NCBI GenBank assembly: GCA_025351795.1
Contig: JANXVG010000072.1
Location: forward strand, 1-64,000
DNA length: 64,000 nt
Origin: Salinibacterium sp.
GTDB taxonomy: Bacteria > Actinomycetota > Actinomycetes > Actinomycetales > Microbacteriaceae
Direction of reading: 5' to 3'
Shown here piece by piece: positions 7,923 to 43,436 of the stretch (position 1 is the stretch's first letter; every line of letters starts with the position of its first letter). The notes beneath the pieces were generated by a model. That model did no database searches. It saw nothing but the letters and a program-made list of their open reading frames with translations, and was not told the DNA's origin. A program made the translations under genes and the position numbers.

Positions 7923-8587
7923 TGGGCAAGCTTTACTTCCGCTACGGAGCGATGAACAGCGGCAAGAGTACGGCGCTGTTGCAGGCCGCCTATAACTACG
8001 AGGAGCGCGGGCAGCGCGTTCTGCTCGCAAAGCCCCACATCGATACCAAGGGTGAATCGCTGATCGTCTCCCGGCTCGGGGTACAGCGCCCAGCAGACTT
8101 CACGGTCGGCCCCGAGCAGGATTTCTACGAGGTTTTCCACCGCGAACGTGAACGAGTACTGCGTGATAGCGGGTTGCCGGTGAGCTGCCTGCTCATTGAC
8201 GAGGCGCAGTTTCTTACCGAGGGTCAGGTGGATGACTTGCTGCGCATTGCGATTCTCGACGCCGTTCCGGTTCTCGCCTACGGCATCCGCACCGACTTTC
8301 AAACAGTCGCATTTCCTGGCAGCCGTCGGCTTCTCGAGATCGCGCACTCGCTTGAGGAACTCAAGACGATCTGCCGGTGCGGTCGCAAGGCGGTTTTCAA
8401 TGCACGCAAGATTGGTGATCGCTATATCTTCGACGGCGACCAGGTCGCTATTGATGGCGTGGATGTTACCTACGAGTCACTGTGCGGAGCCTGCTACCTC
8501 GAAGAGAGCGGCGGCATACTCAACAGCGGCTGGCGCCCCAAAGCAGACTTCAGTTACGGCACAGCGCCAGACGTCGACTTCACCTAG
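7922..8587 (+). CDS. tdk: thymidine kinase (type II)
   Basis: A 221-residue type II thymidine kinase that phosphorylates thymidine to dTMP with ATP. Visible are the P-loop GAMNSGKST (residues 9-17), DEAQFL with the catalytic Glu, the lasso-type zinc cysteines in CRCGRKAVF and CGACYL, and the YES-type nucleoside loop in VTYESLCGACY. The GTG start shares its first base with the TAG of the response regulator (TAGTG). Close linkage to a two-component system is unusual for this salvage gene and suggests co-expression. A strong bidirectional terminator follows the stop codon. Confidence 0.92.
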   Translation: MGKLYFRYGAMNSGKSTALLQAAYNYEERGQRVLLAKPHIDTKGESLIVSRLGVQRPADFTVGPEQDFYEVFHRERERVLRDSGLPVSCLLIDEAQFLTEGQVDDLLRIAILDAVPVLAYGIRTDFQTVAFPGSRRLLEIAHSLEELKTICRCGRKAVFNARKIGDRYIFDGDQVAIDGVDVTYESLCGACYLEESGGILNSGWRPKADFSYGTAPDVDFT

Positions 8588-12315: not shown

Positions 12316-12474
12316 ATGCCCATGTGGGAGTACCTCACCACCCCGTTGATCATTCACAACACGGCCGCCATCCTCAACAACTGGGGTTCGGAGGGCTGGG
12401 AACTCGTGCAGGTCGTGACCGGCCCCGAGGGTGGGCTTGTCGCATATCTAAAGCGCCCGAAGAAAGAAGACTGA
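12316..12474 (+). CDS. DUF4177-like small protein
   Basis: A 52-residue protein reading MPMWEYLTTPLI, then a helix ending NNWGSEGWELVQV and a strand GGLVAYLKRPK. The WEY plus LNxxGxEGWELV pattern is that of DUF4177-type proteins, whose function is unknown. The ATG at 12316 is near a GGAAG motif and is preferred; a second ATG lies two codons on. Its TGA shares a base with the ATG of the RidA gene (TGATG), so the two are translationally coupled. It is divergent from the penicillin-binding protein. Confidence 0.75.
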   Translation: MPMWEYLTTPLIIHNTAAILNNWGSEGWELVQVVTGPEGGLVAYLKRPKKED

Positions 12475-12935
12475 TGTCTGCATTGGATGACCGCCTCGCC
12501 GAACTCGGCATCGAAATTCCCGAGGTTGTCAAGCCTGTCGCCGCCTACGTGCCCGCTGTCGTTACGGGAAATCTGGTGTTCACCGCCGGACAGCTGCCGT
12601 TCGTGAACGGGGCCTTGTCCGAGACCGGCAAGGTGGGTGCTGAGGTGAGCGCGGCATCCGCCACTGATTTGGCCCGCACGTGTGTACTCAACGGACTCGC
12701 GGCCGCGAAGGGCGCGATCGGGTCACTCGACAGGATCACGCGCGTGGTCAAGGTGGTCGGGTTTGTCGCGTCTGACCCGTCGTTCACGGGCCAACCCGCG
12801 GTCATCAACGGTGCGTCCCTGTTGCTCGGTGAGATCTTTGGCGAGGCCGGCGCCCACGCACGTAGTGCCGTCGGCGTCGCGGTGTTGCCGCTGGATGCTC
12901 CCGTCGAGATCGAGTTCGTGTTCGAGTTCGCCTGA
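12474..12935 (+). CDS. RidA/YjgF family protein
   Basis: A 153-residue RidA-family protein of the longer actinobacterial type. It carries the typical strand YVPAVVTGNLVFTAGQLPF, a central helix DLARTCVLNGLAAAKGAIG, VVKVVGFVASDPSFTGQPAVINGAS and a final ARSAVGVAVLPLDAPVEIEF. Family members are trimers that hydrolyse reactive enamine/imine intermediates from PLP enzymes. The Arg that in RidA contacts the keto-acid (in the ARSAVGVAVLPL strand) is present; the acidic position lies in the terminal VEIEFVFEFA. It is coupled to the DUF4177-like gene upstream. Confidence 0.85.
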   Translation: MSALDDRLAELGIEIPEVVKPVAAYVPAVVTGNLVFTAGQLPFVNGALSETGKVGAEVSAASATDLARTCVLNGLAAAKGAIGSLDRITRVVKVVGFVASDPSFTGQPAVINGASLLLGEIFGEAGAHARSAVGVAVLPLDAPVEIEFVFEFA

Positions 12936-12988
12936 TTCGCGGGCGAGCTCGTCGGGTGGTGTCAGGTGCGATGGCGGCACTTTTAGCT

Positions 12989-13068
12989 CGCTTTTCCGGA
13001 CCAATCGCTCAGTCGGTGCCGAAATGCGGTAACCAGAGTGATCTTGACGAACTTCCTCCGGAAAAGCG
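12989..13068. repeat. palindrome-ended element E1 (pair 1)
   Basis: 80-bp element with perfect 12-bp terminal inverted repeats CGCTTTTCCGGA and TCCGGAAAAGCG. It lies between the 3' ends of the RidA gene and the AbiEi/DUF559 gene. Its interior contains ATGCGGTAACCAGAGTGATC, which resembles the reverse complement of the interior of the element at 14118-14207, so the two probably belong to one family in opposite orientation. The 56-base spacing between arms is long for a simple terminator. Confidence 0.75.
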
Positions 13069-13109
13069 CACGAAAAACAGTTCGGGCAACACCCCTGATT
13101 CTCTGACGT

Positions 13110-13997
13110 TCACACGACGCGTCGGAGGTGATCCTGTCGTGACAGGTGCTCGAGAATGCGGAGTTCGCAGGCTGGCCAGTTGTACATGACCATGGCGTAT
13201 CGCAGCCTGATCACGATGTATCCACGAATCGACAGTGCGTTGTCGCGGTTCGCATCCCGCGTGGCATCGGCGATCGCGTCGTGAAATTGACGGCCATCGG
13301 TCTCGATGATGATCGATCGCCCGACAACGAAATCGACTTCACCCACGCCATCGATCCTTCGGTGGAACTCGAATGGGATACCGCGCTCGATCAGCCAGCA
13401 GCGCACGATCGATTCGAGGCCGGAGTCCGACCGTGGGTCGAGGTATCGATTCCATGCGGAGAAGCGCTCGGGTAGTGATGCGATCAGAGCACGGACGGCG
13501 GATTCCGACACCGTACCGACCCTCATCGCTGAGTCCGCACACGCGACGGCGGTCGTGCGGTCGGAGCACAGCATCACTTGCGCGAGCGACTCGAGGGGGG
13601 ACTCGCGCCACTCGTCCGATCGACCGCTCGGAACTCCATGCAGCACGCGCCAGTGCTGCACAATTTGGTGATCCCGTGCGGACCGCGAGTCAGGATAGGC
13701 GAATTGCACGCGACCGGGCTTGGCGACGTTGCCGTGTGCTGGCCAGCTCACATGCACGCGTTCCTCGAGCCCGATCCACCAGCCATAGCTCGCGGCGGCG
13801 GACATACCGCCAATCCGACCGCCAAGCATAATGGCGATGCGACGATGGTCGTCGAGACCCGGCAGCGCGTACCACGCCCGCCTAACTCGCACCACGATGC
13901 CGGATCGCACTGCGCTGGTGAGCGAGTAGCCGGAGATCCCGCGCACGCGCAGGGCTTTGCGGGTAGCGATGCCCCCAAGTTCGGTCATTGTTGCCAT
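13110..13997 (-). CDS. AbiEi-type winged helix / DUF559 nuclease-like protein
   Basis: About 295 residues if started at ATG 13997; in-frame ATG 14024 and TTG 14057 are possible and no ribosome site decides. The N-terminal part has a short AbiEi-like helix-turn-helix (LRVRGISGYSLTSAVRSG, then VVRVRRAWYALPG). The last 100 residues form a Vsr/DUF559 PD-(D/E)XK-like domain: ESIVRCWLIERGIPFEF, GVGEVDFVVG and IIIETDGRQFH with Glu and two acidic residues in place, then RDNALSIRGYIVIRLRY. DNA cleavage or nicking is plausible but unproven. It is a paralogue of the gene at 42441-43328 and is bracketed by palindrome-ended elements E1 and E2. Confidence 0.75.
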   Translation of the reverse strand: MATMTELGGIATRKALRVRGISGYSLTSAVRSGIVVRVRRAWYALPGLDDHRRIAIMLGGRIGGMSAAASYGWWIGLEERVHVSWPAHGNVAKPGRVQFAYPDSRSARDHQIVQHWRVLHGVPSGRSDEWRESPLESLAQVMLCSDRTTAVACADSAMRVGTVSESAVRALIASLPERFSAWNRYLDPRSDSGLESIVRCWLIERGIPFEFHRRIDGVGEVDFVVGRSIIIETDGRQFHDAIADATRDANRDNALSIRGYIVIRLRYAMVMYNWPACELRILEHLSRQDHLRRVV

Positions 13998-14117
13998 AAG
14001 GACGGTCGGGATTTTTGCCTGCATGCGTGGATGCTGCACCACCGCGATGCTGCGCAAGGCGGCATCCGGGGCTTCGGTGAGAAACAGCGCCGTCGGGCGA
14101 CGGTGGAGGCGGGGCTA

Positions 14118-14207
14118 TCGCGCGCTTTTCCGGATCAACCTACTGACAGTCACAGTGGTTACAACAAAAGTGGAGCGCGACTTGGTAACCTCCGGAAAAG
14201 CGCGCGA
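14118..14207. repeat. palindrome-ended element E2 (pair 1)
   Basis: 90-bp element with perfect 17-bp terminal inverted repeats TCGCGCGCTTTTCCGGA and TCCGGAAAAGCGCGCGA. The inner 11 bases of the arms match those of E1. A further internal pair, GGTTAC and GTAACC, makes the element doubly palindromic. It lies between the start of the AbiEi/DUF559 gene and the 3' end of the acetyl-CoA synthetase gene. Confidence 0.8.
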
Positions 14208-14259
14208 AAGGCGAGCCGGGGCGCGCGAAAAGGGAGCGCCACCACCGCAGTGTGCCGTC

Positions 14260-16245
<1,986 letters not shown>

Positions 16246-16380
16246 CAAATCCTCGATGATTTCATGCGACGCCGGCTACGAATGCGGCGAAAAGGGGGGA
16301 GCTGGGACGCAACGAGTCTAAGCGCCTGAGAGCGACCCGCGCAGTTGCTGATTACGCGTGGTGAATCGCCGAATCATCCA

Positions 16381-33580: not shown

Positions 33581-33664
33581 CCGAAATGCAGGAGTTGAGG
33601 CATCCGCTCCCCCCCGATTCCGGATACCGTTACCCGGCCAGTAGGTGCATCTCCTGCATTTCGG
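33581..33664. repeat. palindrome-ended element E3 (solitary)
   Basis: 84-bp element with perfect 14-bp terminal inverted repeats CCGAAATGCAGGAG and CTCCTGCATTTCGG, in the gap between two convergent genes. The size and build match the elements at 12989, 14118, 42276 and 43345, and the interior has CCGTTACCC, similar to the GGTAAC core of the first pair. No AbiEi/DUF559 gene adjoins it. It could also act as a bidirectional terminator, but a 56-base loop is long for that. Confidence 0.7.
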
Positions 33665-42120: not shown

Positions 42121-42440
42121 TACGTATCTTTCTTTTACCAGTGTAGTCAACACCGGATTCGCGTGGATATTCCTGTGTAACAGGGCAACGCCTGAATGTA
42201 GCCCTCCTCGGGTGCCCTCGTATCCTGCCGCGCGCCCACTCATCGCGGCCGCGCCGTGTTGCGGCCGCGCCGTGTTGCGCAACTCATGCTGCTGGGTGTG
42301 ACACGGCAGCGCGACCGCGGCTTTCCGCGCCCCTCGACCGAGCCCTATCCAATCTCACATGAGTTATGCACATCGCCGCAGTAGTGCACAAATGTGTCAG
42401 GCGACCGCCGTGGGTCGCTCGGCAGCAGCACTGTGGAGCA
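42121..42440. other. divergent intergenic region between riboswitch and second AbiEi gene
   Basis: No gene. It holds a 16-bp tandem duplication GCGGCCGCGCCGTGTT (42245-42260 and 42261-42276) directly abutting palindrome-ended element A (42276-42370). The rib promoter (minus strand) should lie just above 42120, where the AT-rich stretch around 42125-42180 is found. Confidence 0.5.
42276..42370. repeat. palindrome-ended element A (pair 2)
   Basis: 95-bp element with 13-bp terminal inverted repeats TGCGCAACTCATG (42276-42288) and CATGAGTTATGCA (42358-42370), 11 of 13 paired. It ends 70 bases before the start of the second AbiEi/DUF559 gene. The arm core AACTCATG recurs in the element after that gene. 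An inner hairpin CGCGG-CTTT-CCGCG is present. Confidence 0.7.
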
Positions 42441-43328
42441 ATGACATGGATCGACGTTTTCGGTGAATCGGCACTGCGTATCGCATCGCGGCACCAGTTG
42501 ATGGCAGTCGGTGCTACTGGTGCCGGGCTCACCTCGGCGGTACGCGCAGGCACGCTGATCCGAGTGCGCCGGGACCACTATGCGCTTCCTGCTACTCATC
42601 CTCACATTGTCAAGGCGGTGCGCGTCGGTGGTCGACTGGCCTGCATCTCGGCACTACGCGATGCCGGAGTCTTCGGTTTCGACCACAGGTACCCGCACAT
42701 CCACATGCGGCGGCAGGCTTCCCGCTCGCGGAGTCCCTCGAGCCGTCATCCCTTGACGGAACACAATCGTGAGGGCGCTCGGCTGCACTGGCGGCCACTT
42801 CTCGATCCGGCGCAGAGCAACGAGTATCGGGTGGGCATTCTCGATGCTCTTATCCAGGCGGTGTGGTGCCAGCATCAGTGGCACGCCATCGCGTCGATTG
42901 ACAACGCGCTGTTCTTGGGGAAGATCGATGACGATGATTTGAGCACGATCTTCGCCCACGTTCCGCGCCGGCTCAAGCAACTGCGGCATCAAGTCGATCG
43001 TCGGAGTGAAGCCGGTCAAGAGAGCGTACTGCGCTGTGCGCTGCGCGCGGTTGGCATTGAGGTGGAGGTTCAAGTCGACATAGCCGGCGTTGGCAGAGTC
43101 GACTTCCTGATCGAAAGTCGGCTAGTCATTGAGGCCGACAGTCGGCTCGCACACGATGGCTGGGAACTGCACGTGCGGGACCGAGATCGCGACGTCGATC
43201 TTGCGCGTCAGGGCTATATGAGTCTGCGACCCGCCTACAACCGCACCATGTTTACCACCCGAGAGGTGGTCGAAGCCGTCGTAAACCTACTCGCGGCGAC
43301 CAGAGGCTTTCCGACGATCGTCGGTTGA
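42441..43328 (+). CDS. AbiEi-type winged helix / DUF559 nuclease-like protein (paralogue)
   Basis: A 295-residue protein in the same family as the gene at 13110-13997: ATGAGLTSAVRAGTLIRVRRDHYALP (helix-turn-helix region, shared with TSAVRSG and VRVRRAWYALP there), then a central linker and a C-terminal Vsr/DUF559-like domain ESVLRCALRAVGIEVEV, GVGRVDFLIES, LVIEADSRLAHDG and RDVDLARQGYMSLRP. The catalytic acidic pattern E..D..E-x-D is kept. ATG 42441 has GGAG three bases upstream; ATG 42366 would start inside element A. Flanked on both sides by palindrome-ended elements A and B. The biological role is unknown. Confidence 0.75.
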   Translation: MTWIDVFGESALRIASRHQLMAVGATGAGLTSAVRAGTLIRVRRDHYALPATHPHIVKAVRVGGRLACISALRDAGVFGFDHRYPHIHMRRQASRSRSPSSRHPLTEHNREGARLHWRPLLDPAQSNEYRVGILDALIQAVWCQHQWHAIASIDNALFLGKIDDDDLSTIFAHVPRRLKQLRHQVDRRSEAGQESVLRCALRAVGIEVEVQVDIAGVGRVDFLIESRLVIEADSRLAHDGWELHVRDRDRDVDLARQGYMSLRPAYNRTMFTTREVVEAVVNLLAATRGFPTIVG

Positions 43329-43344: not shown

Positions 43345-43436
43345 GCGTGACTCATGCTGGTTGGGAATGCCTCCAGCGCGCCCCAGTCTTTGACGGAGCA
43401 GTTCGAGTCTTCGCGATCACACAGCATGAGTTGTGC
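43345..43436. repeat. palindrome-ended element B (pair 2)
   Basis: 92-bp element with 15-bp terminal inverted repeats GCGTGACTCATGCTG (43345-43359) and CAGCATGAGTTGTGC (43422-43436), 12 of 15 paired. It begins 16 bases after the stop of the second AbiEi/DUF559 gene. Its right arm read on the minus strand, GCACAACTCATGCTG, matches the left arm of element A at 14 of 15 positions. Confidence 0.72.

Follow-up and report, generated by a model that had tools for sequence, protein, structure and literature searches.

The inverted-repeat elements E1 and E2, which flank a nuclease gene between a RidA-family gene and an acs-like gene, are probably the bipartite, double-stranded sites of the protein encoded between them, and gene and sites together would form a resident, vertically inherited system resembling REPIN/RAYT. 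The observations behind this reading were computed: the association of gene and elements, the match between arm sequences and the protein tree, conserved arms around free interiors, stepped element lengths, invariant nuclease residues, and synteny. The features of the window (the whole 64,000-nucleotide stretch of DNA that was analysed) are summarized in Table 1.

Table 1. Coordinates of the genes and inverted-repeat elements discussed, given as positions in the window
Feature	Position	Strand	Description
RidA-family gene, left neighbour	12474..12935	+	ORF; name read from sequence
E1, downstream of nuclease gene	12989..13068	-	80 bp; perfect 12-bp arms CGCTTTTCCGGA; minus-strand core TCACTCTGGTTAC
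Nuclease gene between E1 and E2	13113..14057	-	315 aa; stop codon 13110-13112
E2, upstream of nuclease gene	14118..14207	+	90 bp; perfect 17-bp arms TCGCGCGCTTTTCCGGA; core TCACAGTGGTTAC
acs (acetyl-CoA synthetase-like) gene, right neighbour	14260..16248	-	two ORFs; name read from sequence
Solo family E element	33581..33664	.	arms AAATGCAGGA; cognate gene on contig C58, same genome
Imperfect element upstream of second gene	~42279..42369		by eye, below strict threshold; arms CAACTCATG / CATGAGTT
Second family gene in the window	42480..43256	+	matched stretch; 34% identity to first gene
Imperfect element downstream of second gene	~43349..43436		by eye, below strict threshold; arms GACTCATGCTG / CAGCATGAGTTG

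Elements E1 and E2 at the RidA-acs locus

Perfect 12-bp inverted pairs with a span of 60–110 bp began at 12 positions in the window, whereas 40 block shuffles averaged 0.28; in this count of start positions, longer arms are counted several times. Perfect 17-bp arms occurred once in the window and never in the block shuffles. The preliminary description had presented E1 and E2 as an inverted pair with a common core. The arm lengths were as it gave them and the shuffle counts were far lower, which places both elements beyond chance; the core lies on the minus strand in E1 and on the plus strand in E2, which identifies them as related elements in opposite orientation. The 11-bp word alone was a weaker signal, with four matches at no more than one mismatch against a shuffle mean of 1.0 (3 of 100 shuffles were equally high).

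The exact core TCACNNNGGTTAC was found in 4 of the 11 elements of the arm family to which this locus belongs (family C, see below), with near variants in some others. A third copy of this family in the same genome is located on the same contig outside the window (G000:C77:77641-77731) and a fourth on contig C59. The RidA-family protein had a match in all 27 genus genomes. The acs-like gene consists of two ORFs (14260-15186 and 15193-16248) with one in-frame TAG between them (15187-15195), which is either a true mutation or an assembly error.

Domain structure of the encoded protein

The protein comprises an AbiEi-like winged-helix part (residues ~15-205) followed by an EDxHD/Vsr-type nuclease domain (~209-310). 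Pfam analysis of the window protein placed DUF559 above the cut-off and AbiEi_4 slightly under it, NCBIfam gave no match for four proteins, and PADLOC returned weak AbiEi matches together with, for the window protein, a weak homing-endonuclease match; assignment to a known defence system was rejected. An AF2 model of the window protein, with a mean pLDDT of 89 from 35 aligned sequences, matched the structures 6y8q, 3r3p, 3hrl, and 1cw0. Residues ~15-205 resembled the AbiEi antitoxin of Streptococcus agalactiae (6y8q; Foldseek E 1.3e-4), with a middling superposition (Z 7.1, 166 residues, rmsd 4.8), and residues ~209-310 resembled the catalytic domain of I-Bth0305I, a homing endonuclease (3r3p; Z 13.1, 96 residues), with further matches to NGO0050 (Z 12.7) and Vsr (Z 11.2). 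Eight columns were invariant in 35/35 sequences, including E215, D242, E252, H259, and D268; judging from their order, these five residues would be those of the EDxHD motif.

No AbiEii toxin gene was found beside the gene at the window locus, where the neighbours are RidA-like and acs-like. AbiEi-type domains had matches in 112 of 198 genomes of the phylum. To our knowledge, AbiEi-DUF559 fusions have been annotated without a known role.

Association of the gene with inverted-repeat elements

The gene sample consisted of the first 60 of 80 listed matches plus a fragment on contig C80 (61 genes; 19 weaker matches were left out), fetched from the window's own genome, 24 other genus genomes, and 3 genomes of the order; the C80 fragment is excluded from counts over 60 genes. 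Inverted-repeat elements, defined strictly by an arm of 15 with no more than 2 mismatches and a span of 50-130, numbered 105 in the 48.8 kb lying less than 400 bp from the 61 genes (2.15 per kb) and 92 in the 413.7 kb lying more than 1 kb away (0.22 per kb). Such strict elements were present on both sides of 41/60 genes compared with 1/287 shifted windows, and on at least one side of 56/60 genes compared with 34/287. An element was found upstream in 43 of the 60 genes and downstream in 54.

The two elements flanking a gene shared an arm 8-mer in 40 of 41 genes, whereas this was seen in 188 of 1640 comparisons between different genes and in 0 of 287 shifted windows. In a shared-10-mer test, 44/60 genes were at three or more copies compared with 8% of mismatched pairs and 4/233 shifted windows. 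Four genes had no strict element (L058, L059, L041, and the second gene of the window), and pairs appeared at L058 and L059 when the threshold was relaxed. The window's own genome carries seven such genes besides the C80 fragment: five of them (C, D, E, J, and K) have strict pairs on both sides, the B gene has a strict element on one side, and the window's second gene has the imperfect pairs listed in Table 1.

Beyond the genus, 36 loci from named genomes, mainly Arthrobacter and Pseudarthrobacter, were analysed. With L206, L218, and L238 left out of the count, the remaining 33 loci showed an element density of 1.04 near the genes vs 0.17 per kb, and 4/33 had strict pairs on both sides. At a looser threshold, elements lay on both sides of 12/36 loci and shared arms at 6; the shared 10-mer was present at three or more copies in 6 of the 36 (mismatched pairs 8%, shifted windows 0/133) and at four or more copies in 3 (mismatched pairs 0.3%). 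Among phylum-wide AbiEi_4 loci, several of which were cut by contig ends, 0/30 had pairs on both sides; ten phylum-wide AbiEi_4 frames were scanned, and four had a DUF559 match, one of them under the cut-off. The association, which weakens outside the genus, is demonstrated here within the genus and in isolated cases from its order, but not for every protein of this type.

Arm families and the protein tree

Arm words varied by gene and were labelled using our own regular expressions. Family C (CTTTTCCGGA) comprises the window gene and two orthologues; the other words were GAAAYTCAGGA (A), CGAAATGACGGA (B), AAATGAAGGA (D), AAATGCAGGA (E), AAAACGCAGGA (F), GGAGGAC (G), AACTCAGG (H), and AACTCCTGC (I), with others besides. 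L058 and L059 received their C label ahead of any inspection of their elements, which then confirmed it. On the protein tree, the arm labels required 18 changes vs 43 when shuffled, the minimum being 11. Families A, B, C, F, G, and I each formed a single group; the remaining labels did not, and needed 2 (E), 2 (D), 4 (J), 5 (H), and, for the unlabelled rest, 7 changes.

All same-arm gene pairs had common neighbours on the same side in families A (66 pairs), B (10), C (3), D (3), F (3), G (15), and I (3), and common neighbours were found for 1/3 pairs in E, 3/15 in H, and 1/15 in J. Different arms were also observed at one locus: the A genes, the K gene of the window's own genome, and L061 share a locus at 34-38% protein identity to each other, and L041 and L045, with 54-55% identity to an A gene, lie there too. 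A second locus is shared by H, I, and the second gene of the window (55-58% identity). L054, L061, L041, and L045 together with the A loci present differing arms at one locus in different species, as if a single system had diverged or been replaced in place.

Element anatomy and length steps

Interiors were near random in families A and B, with a few columns above the shuffled maximum, and those of family C contained a loose core. Family A elements measured 77-78, 87-90, or 98-100 bp, with none of 55 falling between these classes, and the full family A list added one element of 79 bp. Lengths were 76 and 87-88 bp in family C, 62-63, 73-75, 84-85, and 93 bp in family H, and 74 and 85-86 bp in family I; in family B, 37/39 elements measured 79-82 bp and the others 64 and 92 bp, and all eight family F elements (8/8) measured 76 bp. 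Most A loci were searched at spans of 74-104 and B loci at 68-98, and these ranges bound the outer lengths but not the inner gaps.

Length steps of ~10.5-11 bp were thus seen in A, C, H, and I, in copies that are related by descent and not statistically independent; B, D, E, and F had mostly one length class and no step. A 10.5-11 bp step that recurs in several families points to a requirement for both arms to lie on one side of the helix, and so to a protein acting on double-stranded DNA.

Conservation, presence, and absence

In orthologous gene-flanking A elements (9 upstream and 10 downstream elements of 12 genes), the arms were 97-98% identical, a value partly built in by the search pattern, and the interiors 54-57%, compared with ~51% for random DNA. 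Two solo sites common to species showed identities of 0.88-1.00 in the arms, 0.55-0.77 in the interiors, and 0.53-0.68 in the flanks. Selection on the arms, one of two explanations first offered for their perfection, is supported by these data, in which arms stay near-identical across species while interiors drift.

The interval 12989-14207 had also been proposed as a 1.2-kb unit that could move as one. Comparison of the RidA-acs interval in 27 genomes revealed the gene in three and its absence from five in which RidA and acs lie close together (G024, G018, G007, G008, and G002); in the remaining 19 of 27, no acs end lay within the 1.5 kb fetched beside RidA. The interval has therefore been gained or lost, but no target duplication was recognised; the intergenic DNA is too diverged to align. 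Movement as one unit is not supported, in view of three observations: in G021 and G022, the orthologous gene, with an element on each side, again lies between RidA and acs; same-arm genes of families A, B, C, D, F, G, and I are syntenic in all pairs compared; and elements also occur singly elsewhere without the gene.

Presence and absence without a clean insertion footprint characterized all three sites compared between species (RidA-acs, G006:C1:282727, and G011:C1:2032876); at the latter two, the element was absent in some close relatives without clean borders. A fourth site (G006:C1:650005) had too little synteny. At L185 (G040) and L186 (G011), longer inserts composed of repeated, similar ORF-like stretches occupy positions where relatives have a solo element.

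Solo elements and their distribution

Using strict patterns, family C was found in 3/27 genus genomes, all three with the orthologous gene beside RidA; in G040 and G041, the family C gene was sought beside RidA only. Family A was found in 14/27 genomes at 2 to 15 copies, and all 14 had an A gene (12 genomes from the gene search, plus G040 and G041). Family B was found in 7/27 genomes at 1 to 17 copies with a B gene in only 5: no B gene was found in G023 (99% complete, 13 elements) or G014 (3 elements), where the B elements are perfect-armed, and a one-to-one rule between gene and element is therefore broken. G023 has a D gene, the arms of which are one base off B. The B elements of these two genomes would be accounted for by loss of a gene whose elements persisted, or by cross-recognition.

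The window's own genome contained 17 D/E-type elements, 3 flanking genes and 14 elsewhere, all of them 75-78 bp long in a search that allowed 60-90; one of the 14 lies in the window, where this search placed it at 33584-33661. Backward-pattern controls gave zero for the C, A, B, and D/E searches. Only 21 of 101 elements were inside called genes, compared with 0.72-0.78 of random positions, with gene positions taken from a crude codon-bias gene call, the covering-ORF test being uninformative in this G+C-rich DNA. In counts that include gene-flanking copies, convergent gene pairs held the largest share of placed elements (A 16, B 17, C 6) and divergent pairs the smallest (A 9/37, B 3/30, C 0/9).

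Proposed mechanism and relation to known systems

Two subunits taking one arm each best account for the fusion of an AbiEi-type part with an I-Bth0305I-like nuclease, together with inverted arms set at stepped distances. AbiEi proteins are reported to bind paired inverted repeats in their own promoter, one of them bending it, with the repeats 3 bp apart in one homologue and 13 bp apart in the second (PMC7319586), and I-Bth0305I is reported to dimerise on a target almost 60 bp long (PMC3943268). For the present protein, we infer binding, bridging by two subunits, autoregulation, cleavage, and dispersal. Within a single element, two protein copies would occupy the two inverted arms from the same helix face, with the intervening spacer bent or looped; each subunit would read one arm, and the nuclease parts would sit over the unconstrained spacer. 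The upstream, promoter-side element would likely give autoregulation, and the downstream and solo elements would need a further role beyond it. The same type of site also exists as solo copies across the chromosome, mostly between genes, and each element family would consist of one single-copy enzyme gene and a small cognate element population. The nuclease may work on the elements or in their vicinity and, in the long run, disperse or preserve them.

The gene-element arrangement looks like an unrecognised counterpart of REPIN/RAYT. RAYT genes are described as single-copy, vertically inherited, not seen on plasmids, and located beside dispersed paired elements (PMC3116915, PMC8049555). According to the same sources, REPIN/RAYT systems share with ours inverted conserved ends around a variable spacer, dispersal mostly between genes, a single-copy enzyme gene beside its own element type, several types per genome, vertical inheritance, and persistence of elements where the enzyme gene is missing. 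The enzyme here, however, is an AbiEi winged-helix-turn-helix (wHTH) protein with an EDxHD/Vsr-type nuclease and not a tyrosine (HuH) transposase, the arms of ~10-17 bp stand at stepped distances around near-random interiors, and strict patterns gave 1-17 copies per family and genome, whereas 69-235 REPINs are reported in E. coli genomes (PMC8049555). A REPIN doublet forms a hairpin as a whole; here, the arms can pair. Since the enzyme is unrelated, the system is not a member of REPIN/RAYT.

It may well be, at about even chances in our estimation, that gene and elements represent a new class of interspersed-repeat system convergent with REPIN/RAYT, in which a resident AbiEi-EDxHD fusion reads paired inverted arms over a helically phased free spacer and keeps a small chromosomal site population intact, and which has split into many orthogonal arm-protein pairs that coexist in one genome and, at fixed loci, diverge or take each other's place. 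Its novelty would lie in the fact that neither protein nor elements belong to a known repeat system, though they work like one. No such system was found described in the open-licence literature, an absence that counts as weak evidence.

Other known systems share parts of the arrangement. With type IV antitoxins of the AbiEi/Rv2827c kind, it has in common the fold of the wHTH and middle domain (6y8q) and inverted repeats near the promoter region of the gene; it differs by the added nuclease domain, the missing AbiEii at the window locus, and the elements that also lie downstream and scattered. With I-Bth0305I, the EDxHD homing endonucleases, and Vsr, it shares the catalytic-domain fold and, on our reading, the order E, D, E, H, D, but its DNA-binding part differs, and it is chromosomal, between ordinary genes, and does not lie within an intron at the window locus. 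Miniature inverted-repeat elements (MITEs) are likewise short and non-autonomous in appearance with inverted ends; here, no target duplication was recognised, interiors are mostly unrelated, and the partner protein is not of a transposase family.

Alternative explanations

The elements could be operator or chromosome-architecture sites only, the nuclease part serving another purpose such as defence or repair and the dispersed copies regulating or organising the DNA around them with no dispersal activity. Paired operators have a precedent in AbiEi (PMC7319586), stepped lengths would suit such sites, and arms are conserved at orthologous sites with no insertion event caught; yet divergent gene pairs, the setting of promoters, show no enrichment of elements, a downstream element is at least as frequent as an upstream one (54 and 43 of 60), and the nuclease residues are invariant in 35/35 sequences. 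We regard operator or architecture sites alone as unlikely, though deserving serious consideration. A homing-like selfish gene would instead cut chromosomes that lack the gene or carry another allele, the flanking elements being copies of its target and the differing arms at one locus a product of allelic replacement. Although the nearest solved nuclease domain is that of a homing endonuclease (Z 13.1) and different arm families do occur at one locus, some at only 34-38% protein identity, the elements on both sides are complete and not split halves, their short arms offer little homology for repair, and same-arm genes are syntenic across species, making homing improbable.

That 12989-14207 is a composite mobile element moving as one is very improbable. 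It would account for the inverted pair and for the absence of the whole interval from five RidA-acs neighbours, but the unit sits at the same place in three species, at one locus in the 3 gene-bearing genomes, and same-arm gene synteny, solo elements, and the lack of a recognised target duplication speak against it, as do the few matches on plasmids (2/72,556 records) and phages (1/50,697), in searches that used the window protein as sole query and may miss diverged relatives. On account of synteny, solo elements, and these few plasmid and phage matches, a composite transposon was rejected. Both plasmid matches came from one Tsukamurella strain and had chromosome-like neighbours, and the phage match was a 4.9-kb unannotated clone. 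Chance palindromes, terminators, or structured RNA, to which the many convergent positions might point, are scarcely credible with controls near zero, interiors near random, and no Rfam match near threshold in 12900-14300; structured RNA was rejected there, since the sole match scored 24.3 bits where the gathering score is 83.

On the preferred reading, in which E1 and E2 are sites of the protein encoded between them, a protein of the AbiEi-DUF559 type gains cognate DNA sites and a testable function, and the many arm-protein pairs would form a naturally occurring collection of long, bipartite, mutually orthogonal DNA-recognition modules coupled to a nuclease domain. The system would also offer an independent second case of how short repeat populations persist in bacterial chromosomes and of what a single-copy enzyme does for the cell.

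Relationships among copies within a genome

Some copies in the same genome, such as a pair of B elements in G008, have common interiors, as expected if one copy derived from the other. Double copies ~150-260 bp apart were also observed (G000:C47:8184-8260 and 8369-8445; G023:C4:150888 and 151039; G023:C3:26 and 288), and these neighbouring pairs, of which the one on G023:C4 is nearly identical, suggest local duplication.
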